Notes under the pieces: model-generated
Databases searched by the model: none
Told to the model about the DNA's origin: nothing
The model's input: the letters and a program-made list of their open reading frames with translations, nothing else
Translations under genes and position numbers: made by a program
Assembly: GCA_964058805.1 (NCBI GenBank)
Contig: CAXKVV010000815.1
Location: forward strand, 1 to 35,677
DNA from: Schoenoplectus triqueter
Lineage: Eukaryota > Streptophyta > Magnoliopsida > Poales > Cyperaceae
Length of the DNA stretch: 35,677 bases
Direction of reading: 5' to 3'
Part shown: piece by piece, positions 4,602 to 35,677 of the stretch
How positions within the stretch are numbered: position 1 is the stretch's first letter
Layout: each line of letters starts with the position of its first letter

Positions 4602-6146
4602 TTTGAACTAAAATACAGCAAATTTAGGGAGTTGCACTAGATAACAAAAGACACAAAAAATAGTTGGGTATTTGTATGTGAGTGTTATGCCACTTGCAAA
4701 TTAGATACTGTAGCTTCTGTCAATTGCTACCCACTACACTATTACAGGGATGTAGTTAGCAATTACTGAGAGATTTGGTGGCATTTCAAAAAGGAGGTTT
4801 AGCAAAAAGTTGGAATACGTGGAATTAGGTGTGTCACACTTCTGGGAACATTAAATTGTGGGTGTTTTGTTTAGTAGGATAATTCATGATTTAAGTTTGC
4901 ACATATCACCTATATGACTATTGAATTGAAGTCTTGTTGTACGCTGTGTTCATGACGTGTCTGGATCACTTGCTATGTGGACAAGAACAAGATAGCATAT
5001 ACCCACACCCCTGTCAGGGCACTTTTGTACATATATGTGCCAAATTTTGGGATGGGAAAGTTTGGCACTTATAAGCACACAAAATAAATCATCCTGAGAG
5101 CAGACATTGTTAAAAAAAATGTATCTGAAGTTAAAAACTTGAAAAGTAGTTCATAGTTAGTGTTAGGGTGGTGAGTTTATAGCACGTGAAATTTTTATGG
5201 AAAACATAAATGGAAGAAATTTTGATTCATGAATATGTCTTTCTTTTTTTAAAATTGAAATCACCATATTGTAGGATACCCCATTCAGAAGACCACTTTG
5301 TATAGATCATACTAACTCTTTTGAATTCTCTCAACCCTAGAGAGGCACGTTGTTAGGGGTCTGGTTGACCTTCATTTGACTCATAAGGATTGGAAAGCCT
5401 GACAATGCTAATTCTCTTTTGCATGTCTAACATATTTTGGTTTGCATCAAGCACCTCAGGGTTTTTTCTGCTCTTGTGGTATTGAGGATCCTACTGGCTT
5501 CGTCGAATGAAATGTGACTTATAAGTTGTAGTTCAGACGTGAAACAAGGTGAAAGCTTCTGGAGCCATGACAAAACCTTTGGTTGTTTCTATTTTGAAAA
5601 TTTTGAGATTTTTAAAATTCTTGTACAAAATTAAACGAAAATAGAATTCTAGGTGGTGTCGAAAAGTTTACAATTAGGTTAATTTCTAATTTTATTAACC
5701 TGCTATTTCAATATTTTTAATAAAAGTGATTAATTGAATCAGCTGCTGGGAACATCCGGAAACTTGAAACGTGTATGTACCAGTACTGTAAAACTTGTTG
5801 TCCGAATTGAATACAAGAAAAATTAACTCAAAGGCCTCAATTATATATTTAGTACATAATACAGTCCTTCAAATTTTGTACAACCCCAAAATGCCAGGTA
5901 TATATCTGCTCTAACTACCAATGCAATTACAATAATTATATGATCGAGTTGTCAAAGCATTAAGCAATTCAAAGGATGCTGTGTGGACCACTCTTCTACA
6001 TTTTCTTATAAAAAAATAAAAAAAAAAGAAGAAAAAAGAAAAGAAAATAATACATATATATTCGTAAGCAGATTATACACACAACAACGAACATAATTTA
6101 TAGTTGAGAGCAAAATGCATGACAAATTTGATTCTCTGCTCGCTAT
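4602..6146. other. Intergenic sequence, no gene seen
   Basis: Mostly AT-rich and without a credible coding frame. A short plus-strand stretch near 5470-5515 reads as a possible Cys-containing peptide ending in a stop. It could be a last exon of something, but I cannot support it. The part from about 5830 to 6146 is the 3' flank of the minus-strand BAHD gene, with an A-rich run at about 6005-6050. Confidence 0.5.
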
Positions 6147-8034
6147 TTAAAGTGCAGACCTCAGCATAGGGAACTGGACTTGCTCTTCGATACTTTTTGC
6201 TGTCTCTGTTAGGAGAGTGTCGAGCTCTACCATGAATTTCTCCATTGCTGGCCCCGGCAAACAAACTGGCACCACAATTCCATTTTCGCCCTTTGCATTT
6301 GTGAAAGGAATGAAAAAGCTAGCTACGCCAGGAATGGCCCCTACGCCTCCTTTAGCGGGTCCACCATATACGGCCTTTCCCCATCCGAAATCCACATCTC
6401 CAAAACCGGCACGAGTCACATCTGAAACAAGGTATGCACGCACCACTGTAAAGTGGGGTCGGCCTTTTAACACCATAAGGTCAGCCACTGAGCGCATGTA
6501 TTCGTGGTTGACCTCTGACTTGGCATTTCTGACCAAACCCAATGCATAACCCAATGGCTTTTTGCACAGCTTGTCTGCTGTGGAGATGGCGACAGGGAAA
6601 GCAAAGGCATTGCCATAGTATCCGTCGGGGACATTAAGGCCACTCTTGGTACCGCGAGCATTGACGATACAAATGATACGCATCTCCTCATCTGGATCTG
6701 GGGAAAGGGCAGCCGTGCGGCACTTCCACAGGCAAGCGGTTAGGAGATCAAATGTGGAGACTTTGTTGCGGAGATGATGTGGTGTGTGCTTGCGCAAGGC
6801 AGCAATCTCGTGGCGCCCGAAGAAAAAGGAACGGTGTGTCATGTCATCAAGAGGGATCAGAGTGCCCTTTGTGTCTTCCACCACATCATACTCCCTATGC
6901 GCAAAGGATGGGCACGGTGGTGATCGTGCTGCAAGAAGCTCTCGCGACCAAACTGGTGGGATGGAAGGGGCCAAATGGCCACGGGCCATCTCAGCAACAG
7001 CAGTCATGAACTGGACCAGGCCTTGTGCATCTGATATTGTATGGTGGAGCCGCAGAGCAAAGATAAAACCACCACACTGCAACCTCGTTACCTGCACAAT
7101 TGTTTGCAGGAGAGAACATATAAGTAACTTGATGAGAGCATCATATATTCTGAGTGATTTTCTGTTTTTTTTAATGGAAAGCGCATTGACCATTAGACAA
7201 CAACGAGAAAACAATCATGACAACTAGGGGTACTATAAAATTGAGGTACACAGTGATTGTAATTGACTACAGAAATATGTCATAATTTAGTTGGCATCCT
7301 GTTTTCAAGTGACAATCAGGCTATCAGTTGAATTTATAAGTTCGAGGATCCAACTGTTTCCACCTAAGTAACACGCTACATCCCGCATCTGATGTATGTT
7401 TAATTTCTCTCTAAAAAAATTCAACCAAGATTTTAAAATTTGTTATATATTTGATCAGGATCTTGCCCATTGAGTAGCTTTAACTGCAAGATTTTACAAG
7501 TTTATGAACGATTCCATAAATCAGAACTAATAAAAGAAAAAGATAATTAAAATCTGCAAGTTTGAAGGGCACCATAGACCATACCTGGATCAAGAGCACA
7601 GGTGAGTTGAGCACTTCACTTGAGCCCGGAACATCAAAGAGGAGCTCCTCTAAGCATGGAAATGGCGGCTGTAACAAATCACCAAACTGCTCGAGGGTTA
7701 CATCAGCATCAGCCTCAATGAACAGAACACCCTCGCCTGTGCATTCAACCTCCAGCTTCCTCGATCCATCTTGGAGTTCCCTTAGCCGACCAGCAAATGG
7801 GTAGTATGGAACCAATGCCTTGGCCAAGGCGTCCCGAATGACCTTGGCAGGATCCCTGCCTTTCATGGAGGGGTTGTAGCGGTAGAACTGGATTACAGGG
7901 ATGTGGAAACGCAATCCCTCTTGATCGTCTATGTCTGACAGACGTTTGAATTCACGTGGCGTCTGCTCGGCAGGAGCGACAAGCACTGGCTCATGCCGGT
8001 GGACGCGGAAGGTCAAGGAACTTTCAGATGCCAT
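6147..8034 (-). CDS. BAHD acyltransferase, benzyl alcohol O-benzoyltransferase / HSR201-like
   Basis: Exons are 8034-7585 (150 codons) and 7091-6147 (314 codons plus TAA), giving 464 residues, a normal BAHD length. BAHD enzymes are cytosolic and transfer an acyl group from acyl-CoA to an alcohol or amine. The catalytic HTISD (HXXXD) is at residues 167-171 and the structural DFGWG is at 384-388; both are intact. The N-terminus ([20 protein letters not shown]) and YYPFAGRL at 77-84 resemble the benzyl alcohol benzoyltransferase, methanol anthraniloyltransferase and HSR201 group, which makes volatile or defence esters. The substrate cannot be read from sequence. The start is the first ATG of the frame and lies about 130 bp from a TATA box. 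The protein ends in SAL, where some relatives carry a canonical peroxisomal signal such as SKL. The gene is GC-rich against AT-rich flanks and has no frameshift or stop. Confidence 0.93.
7092..7584 (-). other. Single intron of the BAHD gene
   Basis: The donor CAG|GTATGG at 7585/7584 and acceptor GTGCAG|GTAACG at 7092/7091 join the codons LLIQ to VTRLQCGGF, a block that is contiguous in BAHD proteins. The 493-bp intron is phase 0. Many BAHD genes carry a single intron at this site, after the conserved glutamine. Confidence 0.92.
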
Positions 8035-8163
8035 TTGGTGCTATTTGTTAGTGACTTGGAGCTGGAAAGCTTAGGAGTAAGAGAGCGAAAAATAATTTGA
8101 TCTTGCTGTGTTCCTGGATTTTAGCTCAGTATGGTGTGTTTTGAGAAGTTGTCTGAAGAGCGG

Positions 8164-14395: not shown

Positions 14396-15772
14396 CCTAA
14401 TTTATTATATAGTTATTCTTGAAACCATTTTGCGTAGCAAGAAGTTGATATTTTGTGATAACGGTAGATGGTATTTACCAAAATAATATTTTTATATTAA
14501 TTTGAATAAGTTAGATAAAGACCGGTTTAGTAAGTACTAATCTTAATATATAAATTATAAAACAATCAACTTAAGAGTGATCAAAAGATGATGCACAAAA
14601 TTAAGTTGAAAGCTATATACAAATGTATGAAAAACATGCTTTAAGTCTTTAGCCAAATATCAATTGCCAAAAAGAATAATTGATGTAAAATAATGTTACA
14701 TAAAAAATATAATTTTGTAAAGATTTTGATTATGAGATGGAAAAGATGCAAGTACTGAAATTTTAAAGAAGACTCAAGATGTTAACGGAGTTCGGTTATA
14801 GAAACTTACATCTTCGAGTCTCACCCCACTACCGAGATGTCACTTTATTACTAAAAAATATTTTATAATTAAAAAGTTTTAGTTTCTTCACAATACAAGT
14901 GTAAAAAGACTAAAAACTATAAAAGAAGAACAATTCAAGATCACTCAAGGCTCAAAAACATAGCTACAATGCTGAAGAGAAAATTAAGCCAAAGCTCAAA
15001 GATGTGCAATGCACTATTCAAAAATTGTACAAGAATTTTACTAAATTTAGCTAATTCAAGATCTTTATTTCTTATAATTTACAATGAAGATTGTATGGGC
15101 TCTTTGTTTCTTGTTAGGTGAGTGCTCTAGATTACTTGAGATTTGGAAGGTTTGAATAATTAACATAATCTCATAGCATCACCTTAGATAAGCACTTTAA
15201 CAGAGAGCAGTGATATTCTTGCGTAGGGAACCATTATAATGATTCCTAAATTGTTATAACATTTCTGTATTAGGAACCAAAATAATCTTTGTTTACCCTT
15301 GAAAAAATTTCAAGGATGAGTAGATGAATAAATGAAAATAAATCGATGATTAATGATAAATCATAAGAAGAGGGAAGAAGAGAAACCAAGGAAGAGATGG
15401 CCCACTAATCAGAAGAGGTCGCTGCTTAACCCCGGAACAAATCCATTAATCCCACAAGGAAATATCAGGGTGAGAGATGAGGATATAAATACCCCACCAC
15501 CTCCTACTCATTCGAGGTGGCTGACCCTCGGGAGATTTCAGAGAGAGAAAATCTCCTGATGGGTCAGCCATTTGATTACATTTTCTCTGACAAGTGGGAC
15601 CCACCTGGCAGTCCCTTGTAGATGGATCTAACAACATAAACCTAGCCTATCTGATAGGTCATTCATGTGACCATTTTTCACTGACAGGTGGGCCCCACAC
15701 CTCAGTGACCAACTATCAAGGGAGTCAGAGTTAAACCCTAAAAATCTGCCCTTGGAGCTAACCCTAGAGAGG
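14396..15772. other. Non-coding sequence to the left of the tandem units
   Basis: The first part is AT-rich without recognisable structure. From about 15360 it becomes richer in G+C and carries 'gacaggtgggccccac' at about 15683. That phrase recurs at about 16579 inside unit 1, so this stretch probably belongs to the same transposable element. No gene is seen. Confidence 0.45.
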
Positions 15773-15886
15773 AGCTGAAATAGTATAATCCCTATGCCAC
15801 ATGAAATGATGTCAATGCCAAGCTAGTATTCTGATACAACCAATCATGAGAAATTTTAAATGTGATTTTGCTTTCAAGGCTGACCT

Positions 15887-16087
15887 GGTGCCAAAGCTGT
15901 GAGCAACCACCTAACCATGCTTTAATTTGTGTCAATTACTGATAAGTAGTCAGTTCTTTGACCAAGTCACCCTCATGTTAAGGGATTGAAAGTCAATTTC
16001 ACAAGACTGATCAGGTGCCAAAGCTGGGAGCAACCATCTGATCAAGTCTAGATTTGTATCAACTGTTGACATGTAATCAACTGTTGA
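15887..16087. repeat. Head hairpins of unit 1 with recurrent loops
   Basis: The loop 'ccaaagctgKgagcaac' occurs twice. The first copy is bounded by GGTG/CACC (15887-15890 and 15908-15911). The second is bounded by GATCAGGTG/CATCTGATC (16009-16017 and 16035-16043; one G-T pair). Two 7-nt loops follow the same plan: ACTGA-taagtag-TCAGT (15938-15954) and TCAACTGTTGA-catgtaa-TCAACTGTTGA (16059-16087; central mismatch). The same arrangement is present in unit 2 at about 21855-22060. Confidence 0.75.
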
Positions 16088-16514
16088 TCAGATCAAACCC
16101 TAATGAATATCAATATAAGTCTAATTGGTATTTAGTTAGGGTGGTTTCTGCAAGAGAGAGATAATTGGCAGAGACATTGAGCTACAAATGAAATCTGGGA
16201 TTAATTCAGAAGAAATAATAGGGTTTATTTGACAAAAGAATTTTTAATTCAGAGAGACAGGGGTAAAAATGGAATTAAAAATTACAGGGGTGATCATCAT
16301 GATTTTAGGGATTTTTGGTGAAATTTTCATGATTTTTAGATGAGTGGAGCTATTAAAATAAATTCAGGGAAGATAAAACAGAATAAATGGATTAATCAAA
16401 GGCTGAGATTTGATCAAAGCAACTCTGGGTACAAGTTGGAGATAATAGCGGCTCTGGGTACAAACTGGGTGCAAGAAACACAGAAGGTATAAAATAAGTG
16501 AAGAGAGAGGGTGT

Positions 16515-16737
16515 GCCACGTGGCAGCCTCTCATTGGGCCATGTCAGCAAGTGGGCCCCACCCTGGTATGAGTCACTGACAGGTGGGCCCCACCTCAGTG
16601 CCACGTGGCAGACAGCCAGTGGGCCACCTCACCCTCTCTGTGCCACATGGCATCACACCACAGGGCCACTTCACCCAAACCTATGCCATATGGCGCAGCC
16701 AGAGGAGGCCACCTCACCCAGATCTGTGCCATATGGC
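16515..16737. repeat. 43-bp tandem repeats carrying a perfect 10-bp dyad
   Basis: The palindromes GCCACGTGGC (16515, 16600) and GCCATATGGC (16685, 16728), plus the variant GCCACATGGC (16642), are spaced 85, 42, 43 and 43 bp. The spacers share 'gggccacctcaccc'-type sequence. The first two are perfect G-box palindromes. The array is present only in unit 1; the corresponding part of unit 2 has diverged. Confidence 0.85.
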
Positions 16738-17780
16738 ACCATACCATAAGGCCACCTCAGCATCAGTTAGTGAGTAATCAGAGATAAAAAGGAAGATGAT
16801 TAAACTAATGAGCCAATCAAATCGTGCCAGATCGTATCAATTAACCCTAATCATGCACTAATCAGCCACTAATGATATCTATAAACCTAGACTCAGTAAC
16901 CTTACATATGGGGCCCACTGTCAGGTTATGAACCTATGATGCATGGATAGATGGCAAGCCAAGTCCACACAGAAGCATTAACTAGAATTTAAATGAGAAA
17001 GAGAATGGCGTATGTACCTGGCGCCTGTGGATCCTTCCTCTGCGTTCTTCTTTTCCTTTGCTTTGGTGCATGAACACCGGACGCAGCTGAGCTTGTGGAC
17101 GCTCCCTCCTTCCTCTCTCTCCTTCTCTTCTTCTTCCCGATGGCTGAAGCTGTCAATGGCGCCATCAATGGAGATCACACAAAGGAATAGACTTCAGATC
17201 AATTACTCCTAGCCCTGGTTATCTAGTACAAAGGAGAGAAGGTGTATGGAGTTAGATTTCAGAATGATGCAATGTAGAGAGAGATATAGCAGAGAGAAAT
17301 ATCTCGGGTCAAAACTTTGAACTTACCAATTGAAGCTTGGAACTTGCAATTGATGGCTGGGAGAGCTTCTAGGACCTCAGGCGATGGTGTTAGAGTGATA
17401 ATTGAGAAGAGTTGAATGCTGGATGTAAGAGTTGCACCAACTCACAACTCGGCCTAGAGGTGAGTTGATCAAACACTGTGATGGAGCTTGCAAATCGACT
17501 AGGTAAGAGCACAAAGAGTTGCCTGACACTGGATTGATGATGTTGAAGCCTTGAGGCAGAAGAAACAAGCAAGGAATCGAGATGAAAGCTTGAAACTTGA
17601 TTATAGCTTGTAATGGAGGAGAAGATGTGAATTGAGATCAATTCTGTAAAATGGAGCTAAGGGAGCATGCTAGCAGTTTATATAGGCATAATATAAGGCC
17701 TGGAAAGATCTAGAAGGGGCTAGAGAGGCTTGCAAGAGTGTGAAGACCGAGTAGTGGCAAATCAGCAAATAAAATGAAGT

Positions 17781-17840
17781 TGTAACTGCCTCTAGGCAGT
17801 TACACCTGAGCCAGGCAATGGAAACTCGGTTCAGTGAACC
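17781..17840. repeat. Two perfect short palindromes
   Basis: TGTAACTGCCT (17781-17791) is followed two bases later by its reverse complement AGGCAGTTACA (17794-17804). Then GGTTCA-G-TGAACC follows at 17828-17840. Both lie about 95-150 bp upstream of the plus-strand TATA box of unit 1. Confidence 0.8.
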
Positions 17841-17933
17841 ATAAGGCATAAAGGAAGCAATTGAAGTGATAGATATAATACACCATGTGCAATTGGATTG
17901 GGGTGGTCAAAATCGGTCAAACCAATGGATTTC

Positions 17934-17941
17934 TATATAAA
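17934..17941 (+). promoter_or_regulatory. TATA box inside unit 1
   Basis: TATATAAA is followed by 'ccctcaaccagtggatag' and a purine-rich leader, and downstream by 'aggtgagt', a good splice donor at about 18146-18152. A reverse-strand TATATAAA also exists near 17667-17674. The position in mid-unit is what an LTR promoter between U3 and R would look like, but no transcript evidence exists. Confidence 0.45.
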
Positions 17942-19301
17942 CCCTCAACCAGTGGATAGAAACAAGAAGGAAAAGCATACACACGACCCTTACAACACCT
18001 GTGAGATCCCCTGAGAAGCTTAGAGAGTAAGTGAGAAGCTAGAAGGCCAATTGATCTCAACAAGTGTTGAGAACTTGGCAAACAATCACCCTTTTCCACT
18101 ATTAACAATCAATCCAAGAGCTCAGAGCTACAGAGAAGAAGGAAAGGTGAGTGTACTTATTGTAAATAGAGAGTTTGAGTTGTAATTGTGCTCAATTTTG
18201 AGTAATTTCAGAACTTTTAGTACTGTTACTTGCATTTTCGCAAATTTCCTTTTCAATTCAATTGAATTTCTCAACTTTCTTGATTGAATCTCTTCCTTGA
18301 ACTATCGCCTTGCTATTTAGATCCTTTCTCTTCTATCTTTTTGTTTCTTTCTTGATTAATTGAGTAATTAAGGGAATGAATTAATCTGTCAGAAAAAGCT
18401 AATAGAAGATCAAGTGATCTCTTAGCTCTAATTGGCTGATCGAAGGTCATTGACCTCTTAGCCTTTGTGTTTCTAAGCAATTGCCTCAAGAATTCGACTT
18501 TTAATCGAGTGATTGATCGCGATTCTGAAGTTAATTGCTAGAATTCGGAACCAGTAATGCAATAGCATTCGAAAATACTCCAATTGATCAAGCTATATGC
18601 TTTGATCACAGCGCATTGCATAGACGACGAGTTCTATATCAACAAAATCGACTAAATTGAAGCAATTGATTAGAAACACTGAGTATAATATCGAATTGCC
18701 AATCGGTACCGTTCTCAGCCACTGTTTCATCGCAATACAAATGAGAGAAGGGGTTGTTGTAGTGATTAAATTACTAGTTCTGTTAATTGAGACTTGGAAT
18801 TGCGTAAATGAATCAAGAATTATAAGAAATTGTGAGTGAATCAACCTGATTTAATCAAGAAAATCAATCGGTACCAAAAGCGGTACAATCCAGTCAATTG
18901 TGCACGGTGGTGCTGGCGATCCACCGCACCGATGCACAATCAAAAGGTGCAGTTAGGTTCTGCAAGCCAAGACGACACTGACTGTAATGTCCGATCACCG
19001 ATCAGATCGTCGGAACACCGGAATCAACCTCCTGGCGCATATCTTGAAGCACGGTAGAGGAGAGACAGAGAAAGGATCCCTTGCACTAATCTTGAAAGGC
19101 CGCACGAATATTGAGATAAATCCAAAGGATCTGGGCTATTGAATATTTAGAAAATTAAAGTGTGAATCAATCTGGGCCTTTAATCCATCCAGTGCAAATC
19201 TTAATTTAATCTGGCGGCCCAAATAAGAGTTAAAGTTAAATAGAGATATATGCTAATCTCAGTGCAGATCTAAAGGCCCAGATTAAGCCCATTAATCAAT
19301 T

Positions 19302-20470
19302 AATAACAGAACATTAATTACATAGAGTAAATAAATCGTTTAAAAATGTTCCTAAACTCCAAATTAACTCAAACTTGTTTCTAAAATTTCCTTATTTTTC
19401 ATAATATTTTTCTATATAATAATATTTCAGTTTAAAAATATTATTATATTAAAACAATTTAAAAGCAAAAGATACTACATATATTGATATATTTGACTTA
19501 GCTTTGACTTGTCATTTTAAATACTATAAAAATTCCTAAAATTCAAGTAAAATCATAAATAATAATTGAATATATTTTAATGATTTTTCTGGTAAATAAT
19601 AATGACAAAAATAATATGCAATAATAAATAATGAGATTAGCTCTATTCTTTGATAAATAAAATAAATAATAATATCAAATAGATATCATGTTAATATTTT
19701 TCTATAAAAAAAAATATAATAAAAATAGATAATACAAAAATATGCAAAAATATATACAACCATGATAATAGATAGTAAATGCATTTTCTTCTATAATAAA
19801 GAATGATAATAAAGTTTTATAATAAAATAAATTGCACTTCTTTTGTTATTTCTAAATAAATATACAATTATTTTTGATGGATAAAATGCAATAAAAATAA
19901 TAGTTGTAATAAAGAATATAATGAATTTCATCCCTTGTGGCTATTTTCAAATGATAATAATAAAACAAAATCTTATATTTTTCTATAGATAATAAATAGA
20001 AATAATAAAAAAAATATAATGAAAAACTATAATAAATGGGATAGAATATTAATAATGATTTCTTTTTAGCTATTATAGATCATAAAGATAAAAAAAAAAG
20101 AAAAATAATCCCTACAAAATGAATAGTATTTCAAAATAAAAAAATATGGTAATAAAATCCTATTACTTTGGCTATTATAAATATCCTAAAAATACAAATA
20201 AAAATCCTAGCCAATTTATTTTCTATTATTTTGTAAGTGATTCTCTACGAAATAAATAGAGTTTAGAAATAATAAAAATAAAATTCTACTACTTTAGCTA
20301 TTATAAAATCCCAAAAATATAAATAAAATTCTAGTTAATAGCTAACCCATTTCCTATTATTTTTGTAAATAATTTTCTACAGAAATAAATAGAGTTTAAA
20401 AATAAAAATAAATTCACCTGTATGATAGAGATAATAATGAAAGATATTATGTAATAATCTTTTTTACATT
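19302..20470. repeat. Very AT-rich simple-repeat-like domain of unit 1
   Basis: About 1.2 kb dominated by 'aataataaaat', 'aaaatataaata' and 'tctattattttgtaa' phrases with recurring 'ctattataaa' segments. There is no coding frame. The matching domain of unit 2 is 24742-25990, similar along its length with small insertions and deletions. Confidence 0.8.
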
Positions 20471-20561
20471 TTAGAGATGAACAAATATGCTCACACAAGG
20501 GATGTAGGGCAACATAGTGATTTTGCACACATGATGTAACATTTAGAGCGATTAGTCGGGA

Positions 20562-21626
20562 CAAGAACATCTTGACGAAGAATAACTAAGGTTTCAATAG
20601 CAACATGAGGAGATATGTCGAGACAAGAACATCTTGACGTTCGTTGAAGAATAACCAAGGCTGCGACATCAACATGAAGAGATATGTCGACTCCAAGAGA
20701 TATGAACATTACGATGTCCGAGAGAAGTGACATCTTAATGACTCGGTGTCATGAACAAGTAATTCATGACCATTTGAGCTAGTAAGGCTGAACTCATCCG
20801 TCGATGAGTTTATCTTCTGGTTCATCTCCCGAGATCGTGAGGTTGAATCGTTCTGTAGTAGATTCATCCACAAAACAGTGAATATGAACCGTTCTGTAGT
20901 AGGTTCCTTCACTAACACATGCCTCAATGTTAAGCTGGCTCAGTGCTTCAGGTTTGACATTGTGTGTAATTGTGTTCCTAGGTTTATGAATCGGCTTAGT
21001 GCTTCGAATTCATGATCTAGAAGATCGGTGAGAAGAAATACGTGAGCCAAATCCACCCTTCTCCTGATTCACCAACCTCAAGATCAACCGGCTCAGTGCT
21101 TCGAGTTGTATTTTGTGCGATTGGTTGTTGACTAGTTAAGATTGAACCGTTCTGTAGTAGGTTTATCTTCTAGATCAACTGAGGTTGAGTCGTTCTGTAG
21201 TAGACTCACCTCGAACCCCTTTGAAGAGATTAATCTGATCTGTAGTAAGGTTATCTCTCAAAGCGGTATAAGCTGAACCGATCTGTAGTAGGTTCGTCTT
21301 CCATAGGATCAACTGTGAACCGTTCTGAAGTAGGTTCATTTTCTAGATAAAATGAGGTCGAGTCGTTCTGTAGTAGACTCACCTCAAGCCCCTCTGAAGA
21401 GATTGACATGATCTGTAGTAAGGTTATCTCTCGAACCGACCTGTAGTAGGTTCGTCTCCCATAGGATCAACTGTGAACCGTTCTGAAGTAGGTTCATTTT
21501 CTAGATGAACTGAGGTCGAGTCGTTCTGTAGTAGACTCACCTCGAACCCCTTCAAAGAGATTAATCTGATCTGTAGTAAGGTTATCTCTTGAAGCGGTAA
21601 AGACTGAATCGATCTGTAGTAGGTTC
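20562..21626. repeat. Dense array of short hairpins with constant loops and varying paired stems (unit 1)
   Basis: Hairpins follow one another almost without gaps. They include CAAGA/TCTTG (20562-20574), CGACAT/ATGTCG (20664, 20684), GATGTC/GACATC (20713, 20729), TCATGAA/TTCATGA (20749, 20763) and AACTCATC/GATGAGTT (20791, 20803). From 20844 to 21626 about thirteen share an 11-nt loop close to GTTCTGTAGTA. Their stems are TGAATC/GATTCA, GAACC/GGTTC, GAGG(T)yGAGTC/GACTCACCTC, CGAACC/GGTTCG, TGAACC/GGTTCA and GAGA-TAATCT/AGGTTA-TCTC. Three others (20925-21108) share a loop close to GCTCAGTGCTT. The function is unknown. Confidence 0.85.
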
Positions 21627-23251
21627 GTCTTCCTTGGAATCGACCTCTTTTGTGAACCCAGACGACCACTTGACCATCATGTTTACCCCTGAAAGGTTGA
21701 AGGAAGAAATACAGGAGAAAAAGCCAAGATCAAACCCTAAGAGCTGAAGCAGTATAATCCCTATACCACATGAAATGATGTCAATGCCAAGCTAGTATTC
21801 TGATACAACTAGTCATGAGAAATTCCAAATGTGATTTTGCTTTCAAGGCTGACCTGGTGCCAAAGCTGTGAGCAACCACCTAACTATGCTTTGATTTGTG
21901 TCAATTACTGATAAGTAGTCAGTTCTTTGACTAAGTCACCCTCATGTTAAGGGATTGAAAGTCAATTTCACAAGACTGATCAGGTGCCAAAGCTGGGAGC
22001 AACCATCTGATCAAGTCTAGATTTGTATCAACTGTTGACATGTAATCAACTGTTGATCAGATCAAGCCCTAATGAATATCAATATAAGTCTAATTGGTAT
22101 TTAGTTAGGGTGGTTTCTGCAAGAGAGAGATAATTGGCAGAGACACTGAGCTACAAATGAAATCTGGGATTAATTCTGAAGAAGAAATAGGGTTTTATGG
22201 ATAAAATAATTTTTAATTCAGAGAGACAAGGGTAAAAATGAAATTAAAAATCACAGGGATAATCATCATGAATTTAGAAAATTTTGATGAAAATTTCATA
22301 ATTTTTGGATGAAGAAATCTATTAAAATTATTTGGAGAAAGAAAATCAGATTAATCCAAGGGCCAGGATTTGATCAAGGGGCTTTTAAGGGTGCAATTTG
22401 GAGTAAAGAGCCTAGCTGGGTGCAAATTGAGGGTGCTAAACAAAGAAGGGGGCTGTTTTGGCGCTGAGAAATTTTGTAAAAGGGAATAGAAATTAAAATG
22501 CACCCGGTTCATACTCCTTGTGTCTCATTAAACATTACATGTGGGGCCGGTCCATGAACACCATGTCCACCCGAACCATATCACCTTCCTCTCTTGTTCT
22601 TCTGTTGTCTCTCTCACTGGGAACGGGTCCCACAGGGACAGAAATTCATTTCTTCTCCTCTGGTGCGAATTACTTCCCTGCTGGCCCGAGTTTTCAACAG
22701 AAAACAAACAAAAATGGAAAAGCACTCAAACGGCGACGGAATTTGACAAATAATATACCGTTGGAAAGCCCTTGGCGAGTAGAATCCATTCAAGCAATTT
22801 GTTTTGAAGATGGTGCACTGTACATCACTCGCATCAGAGGAGAAGTAATTCGGGTATAAAATTCAATAGGGTGATCCGGAGAGTAATTGAACGAATTGAC
22901 GGTTTAGAAGGCACTATGTGGGCCCCAAGATGCGGTTGGAGTAGTTGCTGGCATAAAACAGTTGATGCTTACATGCTTTCTCACTGGAACCGGTGCACAT
23001 GATCAAGAGCATGTATCAAGAATTGATCAATTCGGTGTTTGAAAGAAAGAACGAGGGATGGTGAGTTGTGGTCACATTGCCCTGTTACTAATCCGAAGCT
23101 TAACCCATAACAACAACAAACACAACTTGGATTGATCCATACCGTTGAATTATTGAAAGAAGGGACGGGATGTAGCCATGTCATTGATCCGTGGGATCAA
23201 AGAAACACGGTTTGTGCGAGGGGAAAACACAATTGAGCCCTAGGTGAACCT

Positions 23252-23259
23252 TATATAAG
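23252..23259 (+). promoter_or_regulatory. TATA-like element inside unit 2
   Basis: TATATAAG lies in the position corresponding to the TATA box of unit 1 and is followed by a leader containing 'cacacacaatac'. It supports the idea that each unit carries a mid-unit promoter. Confidence is limited by the divergence of the surrounding sequence. Confidence 0.35.
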
Positions 23260-24741
23260 CATTAGAATATCAATTGAACAAGGGGGGAGAGGGGTAATCA
23301 CACACACAATACAATTCTTGATCTCCACTCCACTGCTTTTCTTCCTCTCCCTCTCTAGATCAGAAGGTTTATTGAACTCCTACCAAGGGATCCAATGGCA
23401 GCAACAGAGAAATAATGAGAGAATAATCAAGATCCTGAAGAAGAGAAGAAGACAATTTGATCAATTGATAGAAGATTCATTCGAATCTCTCAATTAGATT
23501 GAATTAGAACTCTACAAGCTTATCCTCTGCCATTTATATTGAGCTAAGTACCTCTATATTTTTAGAATGTAATTCCTTGAGAAGATTATTGCTATTCTAT
23601 TATTGAAAATGTGAATTCTTTTCTACATTTCTTGATTTACTATCTTGCTTACCTCCTTCTTCCTACTAATTTCTTCTATCTTTTCTTTTCTGAAGCATTA
23701 TTCATAAGATTTACATAAAGAAATTGGGCTAATACAAAGTAGTCGAAGTGCTTATAGTACTCCTACTTTCTCAATTGACTAGTAGTAGGCACTATATGCC
23801 TCCTAGTCTTAGCTAGTGATTTGATTAAATTTCTTGGCCAGCCAAGGTTAGAGGTTATGCCCTAAAAAAAAAAGAAAACAAACAAACAAAAAATATAGAA
23901 GATAGCTGTTGAACTCGGTATAGGTCAAATCCACAAAATTGCTATGGCAATCACAATTGGGATAGTACAAAGAGAGACAAGGAGTACTGCAGTCAGCAAT
24001 CATAATGAAATTAATAGAGTTCATAAGGAAGTTGCTAAAGAATTGCAAACTGACACTTAGCACTGTTATTGAAAGAAAAATACAAAAACATTCTTAATCA
24101 ATGCCTCACTTGGAATTGATAGATGTAACATAGAGATTGAGATTGACATTACGAAATTCAGAGAAAATCAATCCAATTGTGTGTCTAGATGCTAAAAAAA
24201 AGCAATCAGAAACTCATCAGTACCGAATTGGTACCGACGAGCGAAATGGTACCGGCCTAATCAGACACCCACCGTACTGATTTGTGATCAACTCCCATCT
24301 ATGAGTTGCTGGTACAGAGGCGATGCTGCTAATCTCATCCGATCAAGGAGGCGGAGCTCCAGTCGCCGGAAATGTCTATCGGCACGAATCTTGATATAGC
24401 CGTAAGAGAGGCAGTCAGTGAGACACGGTTATATGATCTTTAAAATGCGAGTTTGTATCCTGATACGCGTGCACGAATATTGAGGCGGATCTGATGGCAT
24501 CTGGATGATCAAGTTTAAAAGAAGGGATACTGAGCGAATCCAGGCCTTTTGGTTCTTTTATGTACTAATCCTAAAGAGATCCAACGGCTTCAAGTAATTA
24601 ATGAGATAAGAGTGGAGTCGGCCCAAGCCCAACAGTGAAGGGAGAAGGGGAAAAGTAAATGAAAAATGATATGGGCCTAACTCGGGGAAAAAAAAATAAT
24701 AATAAAACCTGGCCCGATTGTCTGAAGCCCAATAATTAAAT

Positions 24742-25990
24742 AATAACAGAATATTAATGATATAGAGTAAATAAATCATTTAAAATGCTCCTGAACTCTA
24801 AATTAACTCAAATTTGTTTCTAAAAGTTCCTTATTTTTCATACTATTTTTCTATATAATAATATTTCAATTTTAAAAATATAATCATGTTAAAATAATTT
24901 AAAAGCAAAAGATATTACATATATTGATATATTTGACTAGCTTTGACTTGACATTTTAAATACTATAAAAATTCCAAAAATTAAAATAAAATCATGAATA
25001 ATAGTTTGATATATTTTACTGATTTTTCAAGTGATTTTTCATGAGATAATAATGGCAATAATAATATGCAATAATAAATAATGATATTAGCTCTATTCTT
25101 TGATAAATAAAAATAAACAATAATAGAGATTATGTTAATATTTTCTGTAAAAAAAAAGGATAATAAAAAAAAATAGCACAAAACATACAAAAATATATAC
25201 AACCATGATAATAGATAGTAAATGCATTTTCTTCTATAATAAAGAATGATAATATAGTTTTATAATAAAATGAATTGCACTCCTTTTTGTTATTTCTAAA
25301 TAAATATACAATAAAAATATTTTGATGGATAACAATGCAATAAAAATAATAGTTGTAATAAAGAATATAATGAATTCCATCCCTTATGGCTATCTTCAAA
25401 TAATGATGATAATAATAAAAAATCTTATATTTTCTATAGATAATAAATAGAAATAATAAAAAAAATATAATGAAAACTATAATAAATAGGATAGAATATT
25501 AATAATGATTTCCTTTTAGCTATTATAGATCCTAAAAATAAAAAAAAATAAAAATAATAAAAATAAAAATAATATAGCTAATCATCTTTTTGATTTGTAA
25601 ATAATTTCTACATAATGAATAATGTTTCAACATAATGAAATATAATAATAAAATTCTATTACTTTGGCTATTATAAATATTTTAAAAATACAAATAAAAA
25701 TCATAGCCATTTTATTTTCTATTATTTTTGTAAGTGATTTTCTACAAAATAAATAGAGTTTAGAAATAATAAAAATAAAATTCTACTATTTTAGCTATTA
25801 TAAAAATCCCAAAAATATAAATAAAATTCTAGTTAATAGCTAACCCATTTTCTATTATTTTTGTAAATAATTTTCTACATAGATAAATAGAGTTTAAAAA
25901 TAAAAAATAATAATAATAATAATAATAAATAAATGCATCTTTATAATAGAGATAATGATGGAAGATATTATGTAATAAGCTTTTTACATT
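24742..25990. repeat. Very AT-rich domain of unit 2, with an (AAT)n run
   Basis: This is the counterpart of 19302-20470. It contains an (AAT)n tract of about eight units at 25906-25928 that is absent from unit 1. Reading frames here consist of Tyr, Ile, Phe and Leu runs and are not genes. Confidence 0.8.
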
Positions 25991-26078
25991 TTGAAGATGA
26001 ACAAATATGCTCACACAAGGGATGTGAAGCAACATGAGGATTTTTACACACATGATATAACATTTAGAACGATTAGTC

Positions 26079-27241
26079 AGGACAAGAACATCTTGACGAA
26101 GAATAGCCAAGGTTGCAACAGCAACATGAGAAGATAAGTCGAGACAAGAACATCTTGACGTAGAATGACTAAGGCTTCGATAGCAACATGAGGAGATATA
26201 TCGAGACAGGAACATCTTGACGCCTGATGAAGAATAACCAGAGCTGCGACATCAACATGGAGATACATGTCGACTCTGAGGAAGAAGAACATTACGATGT
26301 CCGAGAGAGGCGACATCTTAATGACTCACTACCATGAGCAAGTAACTCATGACTAAATACGCTCACACAAGGGGTGTGGGGCAACATAGTGATTTTGCAC
26401 AAGTAATGTAACATATAGAATGATTAGTCGAGACAAGAACATCTTGACGCTCGCTGAAGAATGACCAAAGCTACGACATCAGCATGGAGAGATATGTCGA
26501 CTTTGAAGAAGAAGAACATTACGATGTCCGAGAGAAGTGACATCTTAATGACTCGGTGTCATGAACAAGTAATTCATGACCATTTGAGCTAGCAAGACTG
26601 AACTCATCCGTCGATAAGTTTGTCTTCTGGTTCATCTCCCGAGATCGTGAGATTGAATCGTTCTGTAGTAGATTCATCCACAAAACAGTGAATGTGAACC
26701 GTTCTGTAGGTAGGTTCCTTCACTAACACATGCCTCAATGTTAAGCTGGCCCAGTGCTTCAGGTTTAACATTGTGTGTAATTGTGTTTCCTAGGTTTATG
26801 AATCGGCTTAGTGCTTCGAATTCATGATCTAGAAGATCGGTGAGAAGAAACACGTGGGCCATATCCACCCTTCTCCTGATTCACCAACCTCAAGATCAAT
26901 CGGCTCAGTGCTTCGAGTTGTATTTTGTGTGATTGGTTGTTGACTAGTTAAGATTGAACCGTTCTGTAGTAGGTTTATCTTCTAGATCAACAGAGGTTGA
27001 GTCGTTCTGTAGTAGACTCACCTCAAGCCCCTCTGAAGAGATTAACCTGGTCTGTAGTAAGGTTATATCTCGAGGTGGCATAGACTGAACCGATCTGTAG
27101 TAGGTTCGTCTTCCATAGGATTAAGTAGGTCGAGTCGTACTGTAGTAGACTCACCTCGAACCCCTTCGAAGAGATTAATCTGATCTGTAGTAAGATTACC
27201 TCTTGAAGCGGTAAAGACTGAACCGATCTGTTTGTAGGTTC
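26079..27241. repeat. Hairpin array of unit 2
   Basis: Same plan as 20562-21626. Examples are TGAATC/GATTCA (26654, 26671), CAATGTTAA/TTAACATTG (26736, 26765), GAGA-TAACCT/AGGTTA (27038, 27060), TAATCT/AGATTA (up to 27181 and from 27193) and GAACC/GGTTC (27220, 27237). Several stems differ from their unit 1 partners on both sides and remain paired, for example CATGAG/CTCATG (26333, 26346) against CATGAA/TTCATG. A few are damaged, such as GATaAGTT against AACTCATC. Confidence 0.83.
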
Positions 27242-27290
27242 GTCTTCCATGGACCCCTTTTGTGAACTCAGACGACCACTTGACCATCTT

Positions 27291-27976
27291 TTAACTATAT
27301 TATTTGCTTCTCTCTTTCAAAGATCCAGAGGTGCCTCGAGGTTAGTAGCCCAGGGTAATTAACGGTGGGGGCTTGCGCCCACCGGAATCTACAAGAACTT
27401 ACAATCACTAAAAAAACCCCCTGAATGTGCATCCAAATCTCTCTAAACGGCAGAATCAGCCGGCACCCAGCAGATGCACGCTCGGGAGGGATCTCCGTGT
27501 CCTTCTTCCGCAACCCATCGCCCAGTGGCGGTGCGTGGCGCGCGAAAAAGGGTCGCACACATCATTTAACTATACTATTTGCTTCTCCCTTTCAAAGATC
27601 TAGAGGTGCCTCGAGGTTAGTAGCCCAGGGTAATTAACGGTGGGGGCTTGCGCCCACCGGAATCTACAAGAACTCACAATCACTAAAAAAACCCCCCTGA
27701 ATGTGTATCCAAATCTTTCTAAACGGCAGAATCAGCCGGCACTTAACAGATGCACGCTTGGGAGGGATCTCCGTGTCCTTCTTCCGCATCCCATCGCCCA
27801 ACGGCGGTGCGGAGCGCGTGAAAAAGGGTCGCACAGGATCTGGCACGCCCGGTGGGACTATCAAAATAAACTCGGGGAATATAAGATTTGGATGCATATC
27901 TAGGAGGGATCTCCGTGTCCTTCTTCCGCATCCCATCGCCCAGCGGCGGTGCGGAGCGCGCGAAAAAGGGTCGCAC
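27291..27976. repeat. GC-rich tandem repeat, period 275 bp, two full copies and one partial
   Basis: Copies start with 'ttaactata.tatttgcttctc' at 27291 and 27566 and end with 'aaaaagggtcgcaca' at about 27559 and 27835. A third, partial copy runs from about 27890 to 27976. The block contains 'ggtgggggcttgcgcccacc', itself an inverted repeat. Overlapping open frames on both strands are probably not genes. The copies flank a primer-binding-site-like motif at 27841. Confidence 0.85.
27841..27858 (+). other. Possible retrotransposon primer-binding site
   Basis: TGGCACGCCCGGTGGGAC starts with TGG, as sites complementary to a tRNA 3' CCA end do. It lies a few bases after 'gcaca', which could be an LTR end. 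Plant Ty3/gypsy elements carry PBS motifs of this look. I cannot name the tRNA. If correct, an LTR ends at about 27835 on its left. Confidence 0.4.
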
Positions 27977-27995
27977 AATCTTGCATAGAACCGAT

Positions 27996-30385: not shown

Positions 30386-33300
30386 CTATGAAATTTCAAG
30401 CATGCCTAATTTAAATCTTAACTCATAATATTGTTGAGTACTAAGGGGTTTTATAAAAATATCAGCTATTTGATGTTTAGTATCAACATGTATAAGTTCA
30501 ATATCACCTCTTTCAACATGATCACGAATAAAATAATGTTGAATTTCAATATGTTTGGTATGTGTATGTAAAATCGGGTTTTTTAAGATCATTATTGCAC
30601 TAGTGTTATCACACATTATCGGCACTTTACGAAAGCGTAAATTGTAATCTTATAAAGTTTAAATCATCCATAAATTTTATGTGCAATAACTTTCCGCAGC
30701 AATGTACTCTGCTTCGGCGGTTAAAATGGTCATCGAAGTTTGTTTACGACTAGACCATGATACTAATGATCCCCCAACAAATTGATATGACCCACTAATA
30801 CTCTTTCTATCAAGTCTATCACCGGTGAAATTCACATCGGTAAAACCAATGAGATTAAGTTCGGTTTGTCTACCATACCATAATCCAAGATTAAAAGTAT
30901 TTTTAACATATCTTAAGATTCTTTTAAGTGCAATTAGATAAAACTCCTTGGGATTTGTTTGGTACCGTTTACATAAATAAACGAAAAATATTATATCTGG
31001 TCTACTAGCTGTAAGATAAAGAAGATTACCGATCATTGCCCTATATTAATGTATGTTGGTTGATTTTCCTCTTTCATCACCTAAATTAGCGTCGATTGTC
31101 ATTAGTGTCTTGCTTGTCTTGCAATCATCAAGGTCAAATTTTTTTATCAACTCCTTAGCATATTTAATTTGACTAATGAATATGTCATCATTCATTTGCT
31201 TAATTTGAAGTCCCAAAAAATATAAGTTCTTCCATAATAGACATCTCAAATTCGTTGTCCATCAAAGAAGAAAAAACTCCTTGACAAGTACCGAATTAGT
31301 TGAACCAAATATAATATCATCAACATAAACTTGTGCTAATAAAATATCATTATCTTTCTTTTTAGTAAAAAGAGTAGTGTCATTTTGATCCTTAACAAAA
31401 CTATTTGAAAGTAAAAATGAACTAAGTCTACCATGTCAAGCTCTACGAGCTTGTTTTAGACCATATAAACATTTTATGAGTCTATAAACATGATTAGGAT
31501 AAGTTTGATTTATAAACCCCGATGGTTGTTGGACATACATCTCTTCATCTAAGAATCCAATAAGAAACACACTTTTGATATCCATTTGAAATAATGTAAA
31601 ATATTTGTTTGATGCATATGCCAAAAGCATTCTAATGGATTCAAGACATGCAACCGGTGTAAAAGTTACTTCAAAGTCAATACCGGCTTGTTGAGTATAA
31701 CATTATGTAACCAACCTAACTTTATTTCTAACAATTATATCATTCTCATCTAGTTTATTTCTAAAGATATATTTTGTACCTATAATAACTCTATTATTTG
31801 GTCTAGGAATAAATTCTCATACTTGATTTTTTTTTCAAATTGATTTAATTCATCTTGCCTGGCACAAATTCAATGTGAAACATTATTAACATCTTTGAAG
31901 TTTTTAGACTCAAGTCGAGATATAAATGCACAATGGACAGTCATTTTGTTCATTTTTGACCTTATCCTTATACCTTTCATATGGTCACCAATTACACTAG
32001 AAAGAGAATGAGAAAAACACTTCTCTAAGATCGGTTGGAACTTGATAATTTGAGTCTTGAGGTGGCAAGATGTGTTCTACACTAATGTCTTCATTTGGTG
32101 CATTATGCTCCTCTTGTATAACTTAATTTTCTCATTCTTGAGTTGTTAAACTATTTTGCACTTCTTATTGAGCCCTATCGATAACATGTTCTCCATCCAT
32201 GGTTGTTGGGGCCTCTTGAGTTGTTGGAGGTTCTTGAACATCTTCAACAATTATGGCTTAATTCTCATTCATTGCATTGATGTTTTTAGCTCCATCATCT
32301 ATAATAGATTGACATTTCTCGGCCCCAAGGTTAGTAGTTTCATCAAATTTGTTATGCATAGATTCTACCATAATTCGTGATGTCGATATATAGACTCTAT
32401 AGACTTTACTTGTGGAGGAATATCCTATAAATGTCCCTTCAATTCATTTTGAGTTAAATTTGATAGCTTTTGGTGTCTCATTTAAAATAAAACATTTAGA
32501 ACCAAACACTCTAAAATATGATAAATTAGGTTTGTGGCCAATCCATAACTCGTATGGTATTTTCTTAATGAGTGAACGTATACTTACTCGATTAAATATG
32601 TGTCATACCGTGTTAACCGCCTCAGCCCATAGAAATTTTAGAATAGAATACTCATGTAGTATGGTTCGGGTAAGCTTTTTCAATGTTCGATTTTTCCTAT
32701 CTACAACTATATTTTATTGTGGAGTATGTGAAGCAGAGTATTCATATCTATACCATCTTTTAATGTAAAAATTATCAAATTTTATATTTTCAAACTTTTT
32801 TCCATGGTAACTAAGGATAGTACCAATCTTAGAAGATTTTTTATTTTCTATTCTACAATAAAAATTGACAAATTGCTCAAATGTTTTATCTTTTGAGACA
32901 AGAAAAGTAAAGTGACTATAATCATCTACAATAACAAAGCATAAACCTTTTTCTTGAGATACTTGGAATGTTTATTGGGCCAAATAAATCTAAATGAAGT
33001 AATTCCAATGAAACATTAGTGGATATCATTTTTTTAACTTTAAAACTTGATATTTTATTCTTACCTTGCATGCATGCATCATATAGCCCTTCGAGTTCAT
33101 ATCTTCTTGTTGACAATCCTCTAATTAATTTAAGATTTATCAATTTTTTGATTAAGTCCATTGAGACATGACCCAATCTTTGGTGTCATAACTAAGAGTC
33201 GGATGCTATGGCACTCAAACATGTTTCACCAAACTCGAAATATCTTAGATATAAATAATACATGCTCTTATCTATTTTTCCTTCATATAATAATTTGTTA

Positions 33301-33593
33301 GTAGAACTATCAATAAGATGATAAGCATTTGAATTAAAAGTGTTATGATACTCATTATCACAAAGTTTGCTTACACTTAGTAAGTTAAAATTAAGGTCTT
33401 CAACAAGATACACATTGATAATGGTTATATGTTGATTTTCTACCGATCCTATACTAATGATCTTACCTTGATTACCATAAAAAATGACTATACCACCATC
33501 AATTGGTTGTAAAGTTTTGAAATTCATTTTGTTACTGGTCATATGGTGGGTACATTCACTATCTATTATCCAAATAATTTCATTGGAGACCAA
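30386..33593 (-). pseudogene. Copia pol of Sirevirus type: protease, integrase, reverse transcriptase, RNase H; decayed
   Basis: In minus-strand order, the protease starts near 33593 with IDSECTHHMT, where the usual DSG has become DSE. A GAG-pre-integrase block LIKKLINLKLIRGL follows (33176-33110), then the integrase start LHLDLFGP (about 33000-32975). The later integrase part includes GTFIGYSS (about 32430) and is read through many breaks. The reverse transcriptase follows: FQMDIKSVFL, EEMYVQQPSGF and CLYGLKQA (31590-31436), then YVDD (31327-31316, intact) and NLLYLTASRPDI (about 31030-30990). RNase H is next, with AEAEYIAA (about 30710), CDNTSAI and TKHIEIQHYFIRDHVERGDI, and DIFIKPLS near 30430. 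The last motifs are characteristic of the Sirevirus/Maximus lineage. Frameshifts at several junctions disable it. Confidence 0.9.
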
Positions 33594-35677
33594 ACATACC
33601 TACAAGAATATATATTCATCATTAGAAGAAAAAGAAGAATTTTAATTAACTAATATATATTTTGACACCTTTCTCCTCCTAAAATTTTCAAAATAAGGAT
33701 TTTTGGGGAGAAATTTATTACCTGCATCCTAGGTAATGACCTTAGGAACTCAAGCAACACTCTTGTTGCTTCTCTTCCTAAAGTCACAATTCAACGAAAT
33801 GCGACCTATTTGACAATAATAGTTAGAAAATATTCTTATTGGAACATGATTTTTTTCTTGCACAAAATGAGACTTGAAATGTGATGTTAGCTCTTGAGAC
33901 TTGGCTAACTTGGATGAGTTTGTTTTATCTTTTCAAATTATATCTGTTGGAACCTTTTTGGACTGTTGGGATACAACCTTTGATTTCTCAATTTTCTGAA
34001 TTTTTTTTTATTTTCAATCTCATAAGACTAACCATTAGGACCCCTATGGTATACTGTATTATCACTCTTTGATCTATAAGTAGTCTTGGTATTTTTTTAT
34101 TAGTATATCTATATTGGTAGACATGGTTATTTGGTTTATCATTCCTATCCATCCTATGTTTGATATTTTTAACAAAAATATTTTTAGGTTGCTTCCCTTT
34201 CAATGTAAGGCTCTTTTTAGGTTTAGAATTTGATAAAAATGAATCTTTAACATATCCTACACCCGACTTATCATGAGGACGTCTAGTCCCATATACAAGC
34301 TCAAGGTTCAAGTTAATGATATCTCTCAAATCATCACATGTCTTGAGAGCCCTATTTTCAATTTTGAGTGTTTGAATTTAAACATTTAAAATAGTATTTT
34401 CACCCTTACATTTTGATAATTCAATTTTCATTCTTTCAAGTTCACCCATGTTAGATTGGTAAATACTTTTATTTTCTCAAGCTCAAGAATCTTTGCTTTA
34501 AGAATGTTGATAGAGGAATCAAAATATGCAATAATCCTAGAATGAGGCAAAGAGTTATCAATTGAATTGTATGGGTAAAACTCATCACGATCACTAGGTA
34601 GATTTGCAAAATAATTTACCTTAGGTGGAGATTGTACCTCAAGTGTTGTGCTTGTAGAAGATGACACCATTGGCTCTATTGGAGATGGCGTCATAGGTTC
34701 CTTGATAACATCCAATGTTGATGTTGGAGATGTAACCTTGATCACTTCTTCATGTGAACTTGGAGAGGGTTGTTTGAGTGAAGTCATAACGGTAGGTTGA
34801 GCACACATCATGGTGGATGATTGAGTCTTGGACTTCTTTGATTCGTTAATCTTGCGCAAGAGCTCAATGGTAATGGGATCAGTGATATTTTTGGAGATGA
34901 TGATGGTCTTCACATCCATGCCACTTGAGATGTCCTCCACCATGGCCATGAGTGCGAAATTGACTTCTTGGGAATGAGAGGTTTCATTGTCGAAGTCATT
35001 ATTATCATCATCCGAATCGACATCCTATATTGTGTTCATGGCTTTTACTTTTCTTTTTCCTGTAAAACCATACTTTGAAGATTTGTCTTTTCGATCTTGG
35101 CGACTTGTGTCATCGGTACCCTTGAGATGAGTGAAAATAAGGAAGCAAGAATGTATGGTATGTTCTTTCTTATGACATCGAAGCATATCACATTTGTGTC
35201 ATGTTTATCTCTTTCTTTGTTGAATTTCTTCTCAAAGTTAAGCATGCCTTGGAATATCTTTGAGAAAAGCATGACATCTTTGAAAATCTCATGATCAAGT
35301 GATTGAATGAAGTTTTCGCGTGAGGTTGATGGGTGGAAGTGCTTGACATTGCTTTGAGTGGAGAAGACAACTTGCTTTGGATCTACATGATAATCCCCTG
35401 CTTGCTTCAGTTTTTCTTCAAAGCATCTTAGATGAGTATACAACTCATCCGACGTGAAGGCATTGTTTGTCCCTTGTATTGCTTCTAGAGCGGAGACAAA
35501 TGCTTCCTACCTTGTACTTCGAAGCATCACCCTTAGGATTTTACCTATAATTTTATTATTTTTTAGAGGCTCACCTAAATCTAAATACTCATTTTAAATA
35601 GATAGCAATATATTATATATTTCTTCAATTGACTCATGATCTTTCATTTTTAAATTCTCAAATTTGGTTTCAAGACC
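33594..35677 (-). pseudogene. Copia gag of the same element, decayed, cut by the window edge
   Basis: Continuing upstream of pol, a degenerate zinc-knuckle lies at about 33830-33780 (YYCQIG..SLNC, with ligands missing). A basic linker follows (34329-33988), then a low-complexity Ser/Pro/Thr-rich stretch (34949-34428). The N-terminal part holds copia UBN2-type gag phrases: SIEEIYNILLSI, LDLGEPL, KILRVMLRS, then EAFVSALEAIQGTNNAFTSD and ELYTHLRCFEEKLKQAG (35677-35390). In-frame stops interrupt it near 35594 and 35509. The 5' LTR should lie beyond the right edge. Confidence 0.85.

Follow-up and report, generated by a model that had tools for sequence, protein, structure and literature searches.

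The nearest precedent for the structure described here lies in the Sireviruses of maize, Ty1/copia retrotransposons whose long terminal repeats (LTRs) hold clusters of palindromes, going by the passages of PMC10760457 that treat them. Our subject is an array of predicted hairpins in the LTRs of a Ty3/gypsy retrotransposon of Schoenoplectus triqueter (Cyperaceae), found within a stretch of 35,677 nucleotides (contig CAXKVV010000815.1 of assembly GCA_964058805.1, forward strand) to which, in its whole length, we refer as the window. Both are arrays of hairpin motifs in a plant LTR with strong predicted RNA structure; in the Sirevirus Copia consensus CACCGGACNNNGTCCGGTG, however, the stem is fixed around a free 3-nt centre, whereas here the reverse is seen, i.e., an 11-nt loop is fixed and the stem covaries. 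The superfamily differs as well (Ty1/copia versus Ty3), and the relevant passages of the same source describe maize Ty3 elements as generally having no obvious structure peak and discuss structured LTR regions as small-RNA triggers or DNA control boxes (PMC10760457). With its Ty3/gypsy coding order, varying stem, and constant loop, the array does not belong among the Sirevirus LTR palindromes. It is a structured LTR region of an already known sort in a new constant-loop, covarying-stem form.

Short hairpins that are read through a loop and a 5' bulge, with a stem sequence that is largely free, are exemplified by HIV-1 TAR and the phage coat-protein operator. These occur in single or few copies, and the likeness is one of design, the function here being putative. 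Ogre and other Tat-clade elements with giant LTRs resemble the host of the array in their large LTRs, tRNA-Arg primer site, second RNase H, and 5-bp target duplications, and differ in that no such hairpin array is mentioned in the consulted passages of PMC6317226 and PMC9289625. RNA hairpins maintained by template switching likewise show matched changes on both arms, but what is described in the corresponding part of PMC8794818 is a mutation process rather than an element, and a fixed loop with a kept bulge is not predicted by that process by itself. Those parts of the open-licence PMC literature that were consulted yielded no account of an LTR array with a constant loop and covarying stems. 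We read the arrays as predicted hairpins with covarying stems in Ogre-like LTRs, which, on a judgement poised about halfway between doubt and acceptance, would form a multivalent RNA element whose constant loop is read by a protein.

A first-pass annotation made from the letters alone had placed about thirteen consecutive hairpins with a near-constant loop at 20844-21626. The hairpins are present, at 14 class 1 loop sites (12 exact copies and 2 near copies, CTGAAGTA), but not all are consecutive, the stretch 20925-21116 being occupied by three hairpins with a different loop, GGCTYAGTGCTTC (class 2). Hairpin array 1 as a whole spans 20837-21640 (+) with 14 class 1 and 3 class 2 loop sites, and hairpin array 2, at 26645-27245 (+), holds 8 class 1 sites (at most 2 mismatches) and 3 of class 2. 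The class 1 loop is GTTCTGTAGTA or GATCTGTAGTA, written G(A/T)TCTGTAGTA in the typical unit. Its exact 8-mer CTGTAGTA has 20 copies in the window (12 in array 1, 7 in array 2, and 1 elsewhere), against a mean of 0.53 and a maximum of 3 in 100 dinucleotide shuffles of the window. At 9 of the 14 array 1 sites an 11-nt loop is enclosed by a perfect 5-bp stem, the other 5 having a stem with a G-T pair or a mismatch; the count for the whole region is also 9, compared with a mean of 0.97 and a maximum of 5 in 1000 shuffles, and array 2 yields 7 (shuffle mean 0.65, maximum 3). Array 1 is exceptional by its fixed geometry and fixed loop, not by hairpin number. Because of a 158-bp higher-order repeat (21143-21633, 2.9 copies), its 14 sites are not independent and amount to about 7 unit types.

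To place these units in a larger sample, the genome (82 Mb in 2086 contigs) was searched. The 12-mer GTTCTGTAGTAG occurs at 690 genomic sites, and its reversed pattern at 31. Counting by eye gave 34 clusters in the first 100 of the 690 sites listed; the 20 of these that were taken as loci align with one another over the array, and most of them also over a core of about 3 kb. Loci of a second subfamily, B, were taken from 73 matches, which were obtained by scoring 40 out of 669 candidates, and L033 was added from a separate search. The hairpin set was drawn from the window and 45 loci by keeping loop sites (up to 2 mismatches allowed) that have two or more neighbours within 450 bp, without regard to stems, and comprises 311 hairpins, 274 of them distinct.

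Read 5' to 3', the typical unit consists of an outer helix of about 5 bp, an unpaired 5' pyrimidine, a 5-bp inner helix, the loop, and 3' arms that follow each other without a gap. The stems listed in the first-pass annotation are real pairings but too short, since many units have this second helix beyond the unpaired pyrimidine. A T or C stands at position -6 in no fewer than 271 of the 274 distinct hairpins; within the 48-bp repeats found in subfamily B, this base is able to pair with A or G at +6. The inner stem letters change from unit to unit (GAATC/GATTC, GAGTC/GACTC, GAACC/GGTTC, AATCT/AGGTT, and GAACT/AGTTC in subfamily B). All on the forward strand, the array begins with H1 (20837-20871; GAATC/GATTC, with an outer helix reaching GTG/CAC) and H2 (20877-20913; AGTGAA-GAACC/GGTTC-TTCACT), and continues after the class 2 stretch with H3 (21138-21169; AAGAT-T-GAACC/GGTTT-ATCTT), H4 (21181-21212; GAGGT-T-GAGTC/GACTC-ACCTC), H5 (21219-21263; CTTTGA-GAGAT-T-AATCT/AGGTT-ATCTC-TCAAAG), H6 (21270-21300; GAACC/GGTTC, and GAACT/AGTTC in most subfamily B copies), and more 158-bp repeats of hairpin units (21316-21645).

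The class 2 hairpins, three in each window array, have predicted stems of up to 17 pairs. Those of array 1 lie on the forward strand at 20925-20962 (loop GGCTCAGTGCTTC, stem CAATGTTAAGCT/AGGTTTGACATTG), 20978-21020 (CTAGGTT-T-ATGAATC/GAATTCAT-GATCTAG), and 21079-21116 (CAAGAT-CAACC/GTTG-ATTTTG). Matched changes are seen among their copies too, from GTTAA/TTAAC to GTCAA/TTGAC and from CAATG/CATTG to CAAAG/CTTTG, in a set of 120 hits (95 distinct) of which some come from outside arrays.

The claim on which the interpretation turns, i.e., that pairing is kept when both arms change and that simple drift of tandem copies does not explain the matched arms, was borne out in three ways. The first is a mate-swap comparison among unit types obtained by clustering the distinct hairpins (singletons excluded, this left 23 of 60 clusters, or 14 of 22 and 12 of 19 in two other clusterings). 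With their own arms the 23 unit types fold at a mean of -8.90 kcal/mol, versus -5.58 with swapped arms, a mean loss of about 3.3 kcal/mol, and none of 20,000 permutations was as low as the own arms with 23, 14, or 12 unit types. The same 0 of 20,000 was obtained with 23 types when the outer arms alone were swapped and when the inner 5 bp alone were folded. Secondly, with the other 19 letters held fixed, the loop-closing pair is C-G in 195 and T-A in 98 genomic copies, against 4 with C/A and 6 with T/G, figures that count copies and not mutation events. Thirdly, H6 shows matched changes across two subfamilies: among 34 distinct sequences of 41 rows, the closing pair is C-G in 16, T-A in 13, and other in 5, and the outer pair -7/+6 is C-G in 12, T-A in 20, and other in 2. 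The subfamilies differ at H6 by two matched pairs, and sequences carrying one of the two also exist. Motifs in the flanks served to pick the rows for H1, H3, and H6; in the case of H1 and H6, these motifs share letters with the outer 5' arm.

A covariation test of the R-scape type, as had been suggested at the outset, was carried out with a tree-based null written for this analysis, and its outcome depends on whether the structure is fixed beforehand. In the scan limited to the 11 stem pairs (a filter dropped 21 of 312 rows, and the subfamily B 48-bp repeats were mostly retained), two pass, -1/+1 with an E-value of 0.003 and -3/+3 with 0.006, followed by -2/+2 with 0.15. In the scan of all 1378 column pairs, stem pairs take ranks 1, 2, and 9. 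Phylogeny-aware testing of this kind is limited by the short sequences, the tandem repeats, and the few independent double changes. Averaged by hand, the inferred substitutions number about 30 and 27 per column in the two flanks, compared with about 11 in the arms of the inner stem.

As to the molecule in which the hairpins would form, the window array folds at -308 kcal/mol as sense RNA (z -6.73) and at -266 as antisense RNA (z -4.81; 20 shuffles each). A comparison of strands with pairs limited to 60 nt covered 42 of 47 regions, the others having failed a length or site filter, and the sense strand is the more stable in 40 of these 42 (all 19 A-type and 21 of 23 B-type regions). The mean z of the A-type regions is -5.97 for sense and -4.97 for antisense, and the sense fold has the lower energy in 17 of the 23 unit types and the higher energy in 4. 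Wobble pairs make up 336 of 3677 sense and 237 of 3376 antisense pairs in A-type regions; B-type regions have no such sense excess (295 of 3397 and 306 of 3427). From these folding models, sense RNA is favoured, though not proven, as the molecule under selection.

Several results weigh against a selected sense-RNA structure. Among all 1378 column pairs, none reaches E<0.05 (the best values are 0.17 and 0.70), 9 of the 11 stem pairs are not significant in the stem-restricted test, and branches on which both sides changed are few, namely 3, 2, and 2 for the first three pairs. Loop conservation is partly built in, because the sites were found by their loop. When 5-bp stems with any loop of 3-20 nt are counted, array 1 has 27, within the range of 200 shuffles (mean 16.7, maximum 33); array 2, with 25 (shuffle mean 11.3, maximum 22), is barely exceptional. 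B-type regions fold less strikingly (mean z -2.74 for sense and -2.19 for antisense), and 120-nt windows give a modest excess on both strands (mean z -1.6 and -1.4, versus -0.4 and -0.2 elsewhere). G-U pairs number 13 in the sense and 18 in the antisense folds of the 23 representatives. One-sided changes of the G/T kind outnumber those of the A/C kind by 10 to 5 on inner branches and 25 to 19 on tips (35 versus 24), and do not show wobble tolerance, because in the flanks C>T likewise exceeds G>A, by 127 to 87.

The combination of a kept loop, a kept 5' pyrimidine, and a stem that merely pairs is nevertheless what would be expected for a protein reading a loop and bulge held in a hairpin frame. 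We tentatively suggest, at somewhat less than even confidence, a TAR-like multivalent RNA array in the LTR, with up to about 17 hairpins per copy, most of them having the fixed 11-nt loop, the 5' pyrimidine, and covarying stems, which would recruit a protein. This protein, Gag or an RNA-binding protein of the host, would read the loop and the pyrimidine, while the stem would need only to pair, and the many copies of the hairpin could provide avidity when the genomic RNA is packaged, exported, or processed at its 3' end. Packaging of the Gag type or host-factor recruitment would rank first among the candidate roles. If the array lies in U3, one copy would probably stand near the 3' end of the genomic RNA; if it lies in R, there would be one at each end. 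To our knowledge, the means by which LTR retrotransposons of plants tag their RNA to be packaged, exported, or processed are little known, and the constant-loop, covarying-stem array offers a concrete motif, in hundreds of genomic copies, with which to look for a binding protein. If the suggestion is true, a structured RNA array supported by covariation would here be described from a plant LTR for the first time, as far as the open-licence PMC papers searched show.

The alternative that survives best, though we consider it rather unlikely, is mutational upkeep, in which a template switch, whether in DNA replication or in reverse transcription of the element, overwrites one arm with a copy of the other without any selection on structure. 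Retroelements pass through reverse transcription, where template switches are plausible, and the matched changes in these arrays are mostly single pairs. It is proposed in the consulted part of PMC8794818 that stems with compensated changes arise and persist through template switching; isolated base changes, uninformative on process, make up 94.7% of the two-step cases of compensation studied there. Arm copying would, however, be expected to erase the unpaired pyrimidine beside the inner helix, which is kept across hairpins and subfamilies, as well as the G-T pairs that persist in many H3 and H5 copies. By itself it leaves unexplained the constant loop and the slower change of the inner stems relative to the flanks, although repeat homogenisation could help here. 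The array copies form a natural data set with which to separate selection on RNA structure from an arm-copying mutation.

An element acting in DNA, with the dyads as promoter or enhancer boxes of the LTR, bound by dimers as double strands or extruded as cruciforms, we consider unlikely. Array 2 ends about 310 bp short of the LTR 3' end, a region in which promoters can lie, and neither wobble test tells one strand from the other. On the other hand, sense folding is somewhat stronger than antisense folding, and dimeric binding to half-sites should fix the letters of the arms, whereas the observed arms vary in step around a fixed centre; as a sole cause, such half-sites are ruled out by the varying arms; cruciforms may be extruded. 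That the array is a passive tandem repeat, in which homogenisation and the recent spread of a few LTR lineages mimic covariation through chance hairpins, is very improbable: the 158-bp higher-order repeats with their few unit types, the non-significant all-pairs test, and the hundreds of related copies in the genome would fit it, but own-arm pairing beats swapped arms in all three clusterings tried, just 10 of 303 closing pairs genome-wide are non-Watson-Crick (6 of them wobbles), and a second loop class lies within the same structured stretch.

The first-pass annotation knew of no named element of this kind; the array does not stand alone but is the LTR part of an Ogre-like Ty3/gypsy retrotransposon. 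Two LTR copies are present in the window, both on the forward strand. LTR copy 2 (21680-27559; 5.88 kb, TG...CA) carries array 2 and sits inside LTR copy 1, which carries array 1 in its left part (15772-21679; the LTR begins still further to the left, at a point that could not be located) and has its 3' tail at 27565-27835. The nesting of a 5.88-kb LTR in another LTR follows from the flanking target-site duplications CATCA, read from the sequence at 21675-21679 and 27560-27564, and from the fact that 27565-27835 resumes copy 1 at the interruption. A self-comparison yields direct repeats in the same order (15772-16487 and 21741-22449, 19285-20690 and 24725-26204, 20617-21438 and 26427-27210); 16488-19284 of copy 1 has no match in copy 2, and the homology of copy 1 with loci L057 and L058 continues leftward to about 15.44 kb. 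A free-standing satellite is ruled out, as both window arrays occupy the same place in the LTR and one of these LTRs has a target duplication. Past the outer LTR end come the 5 nt GGATC and then the primer-binding site TGGCACGCCCGGTGGGAC (27841-27858, +), complementary to the 3' end, with CCA added, of tRNA-Arg(TCT) as encoded by two genes of the same genome.

The coding domains were found in a relative of the element (loci L018 and L056, on one contig) and not in the window itself. In L018, L022, and L028, the LTR end and primer site are followed by a long open frame (962, 1124, and 934 codons), which in L018, the one of the three that was scanned, matches Retrotrans_gag. Downstream on the contig of L018, L056 has RVT_1, RT_RNaseH, RVT_3, and rve in this order, RT and RNase H being separated by a stop. 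By these predicted domains (gag; RT-RNase H ahead of integrase) the element is Ty3/gypsy, and the second RNase H (RVT_3, putatively of the archaeal type) between RNase H and integrase would place it in the Tat clade, an assignment made by domain match. A second RNase H is described as a mark of the Tat clade, and tRNA-Arg priming and very large LTRs are described for Ogre, in the consulted passages of PMC6317226 and PMC9289625. With its tRNA-Arg primer and LTRs of 5.39 kb (locus L026, target duplication TTAAG) and 5.88 kb (window), the element can be called Ogre-like on sequence features. Residues 480-960 of the gag product retrieved 20 protein relatives, 16 with an organism name, of which 13 are from Dioscorea or Dendrobium, a distribution that by itself makes a monocot host probable. 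One similar gag fragment, P0016, is filed under Serratia marcescens and is probably a contaminant.

L018 and L019 share a contig and an orientation, with 21.7 kb between their LTR ends; being 99.66% identical over 5591 bp, they have the appearance of the paired LTRs of a single young element. For L022 and L021, the identity is 98.60% over 5647 bp. The L018 element would span at least 28 kb if L057 belongs to its LTR. For the L018/L022 subfamily, neither L057 nor L058 revealed the left end of the LTR, and a TATA-like CTATACTATTT downstream of the array is not kept in L013. Just 5' of the gag start, L018 has a pyrimidine-rich CAG (5592-5730) that by eye resembles a splice acceptor and suggests a 5' leader intron. 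The junction of LTR end and primer site is tandemly repeated in several copies with a 146-bp period (window 27485-27985, C502:5041-5356, C22:535553-535868). Upstream of the arrays, 20550-20770 and 26066-26353 consist of repeats with 62-bp units containing CAAGA-aca-TCTTG, which appear hairpin-prone, and windows that start at 20700 and 20760 have sense z of -3.4 and -4.8. Another strong fold (sense z to -5.8) lies at 21900-22140 in the 5' part of the LTR.

A tRNA search rejected the array as a tRNA, and no Rfam family matches it above the gathering score. The only such match in the window is a precursor of the plant microRNA MIR168 at 3187-3304 (+). On the strand opposite to the hairpin LTRs, 30386-35506 (-) holds pieces of a seemingly broken Ty1/copia element; of the two pieces scanned, 31436-31702 matches RVT_2 and 30677-31045 has no Pfam match. 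Finally, 6147-8040 (-) contains two pieces of an acyltransferase gene (Pfam Transferase), which we take to be of the BAHD type, separated by a 265-bp gap that is probably an intron.
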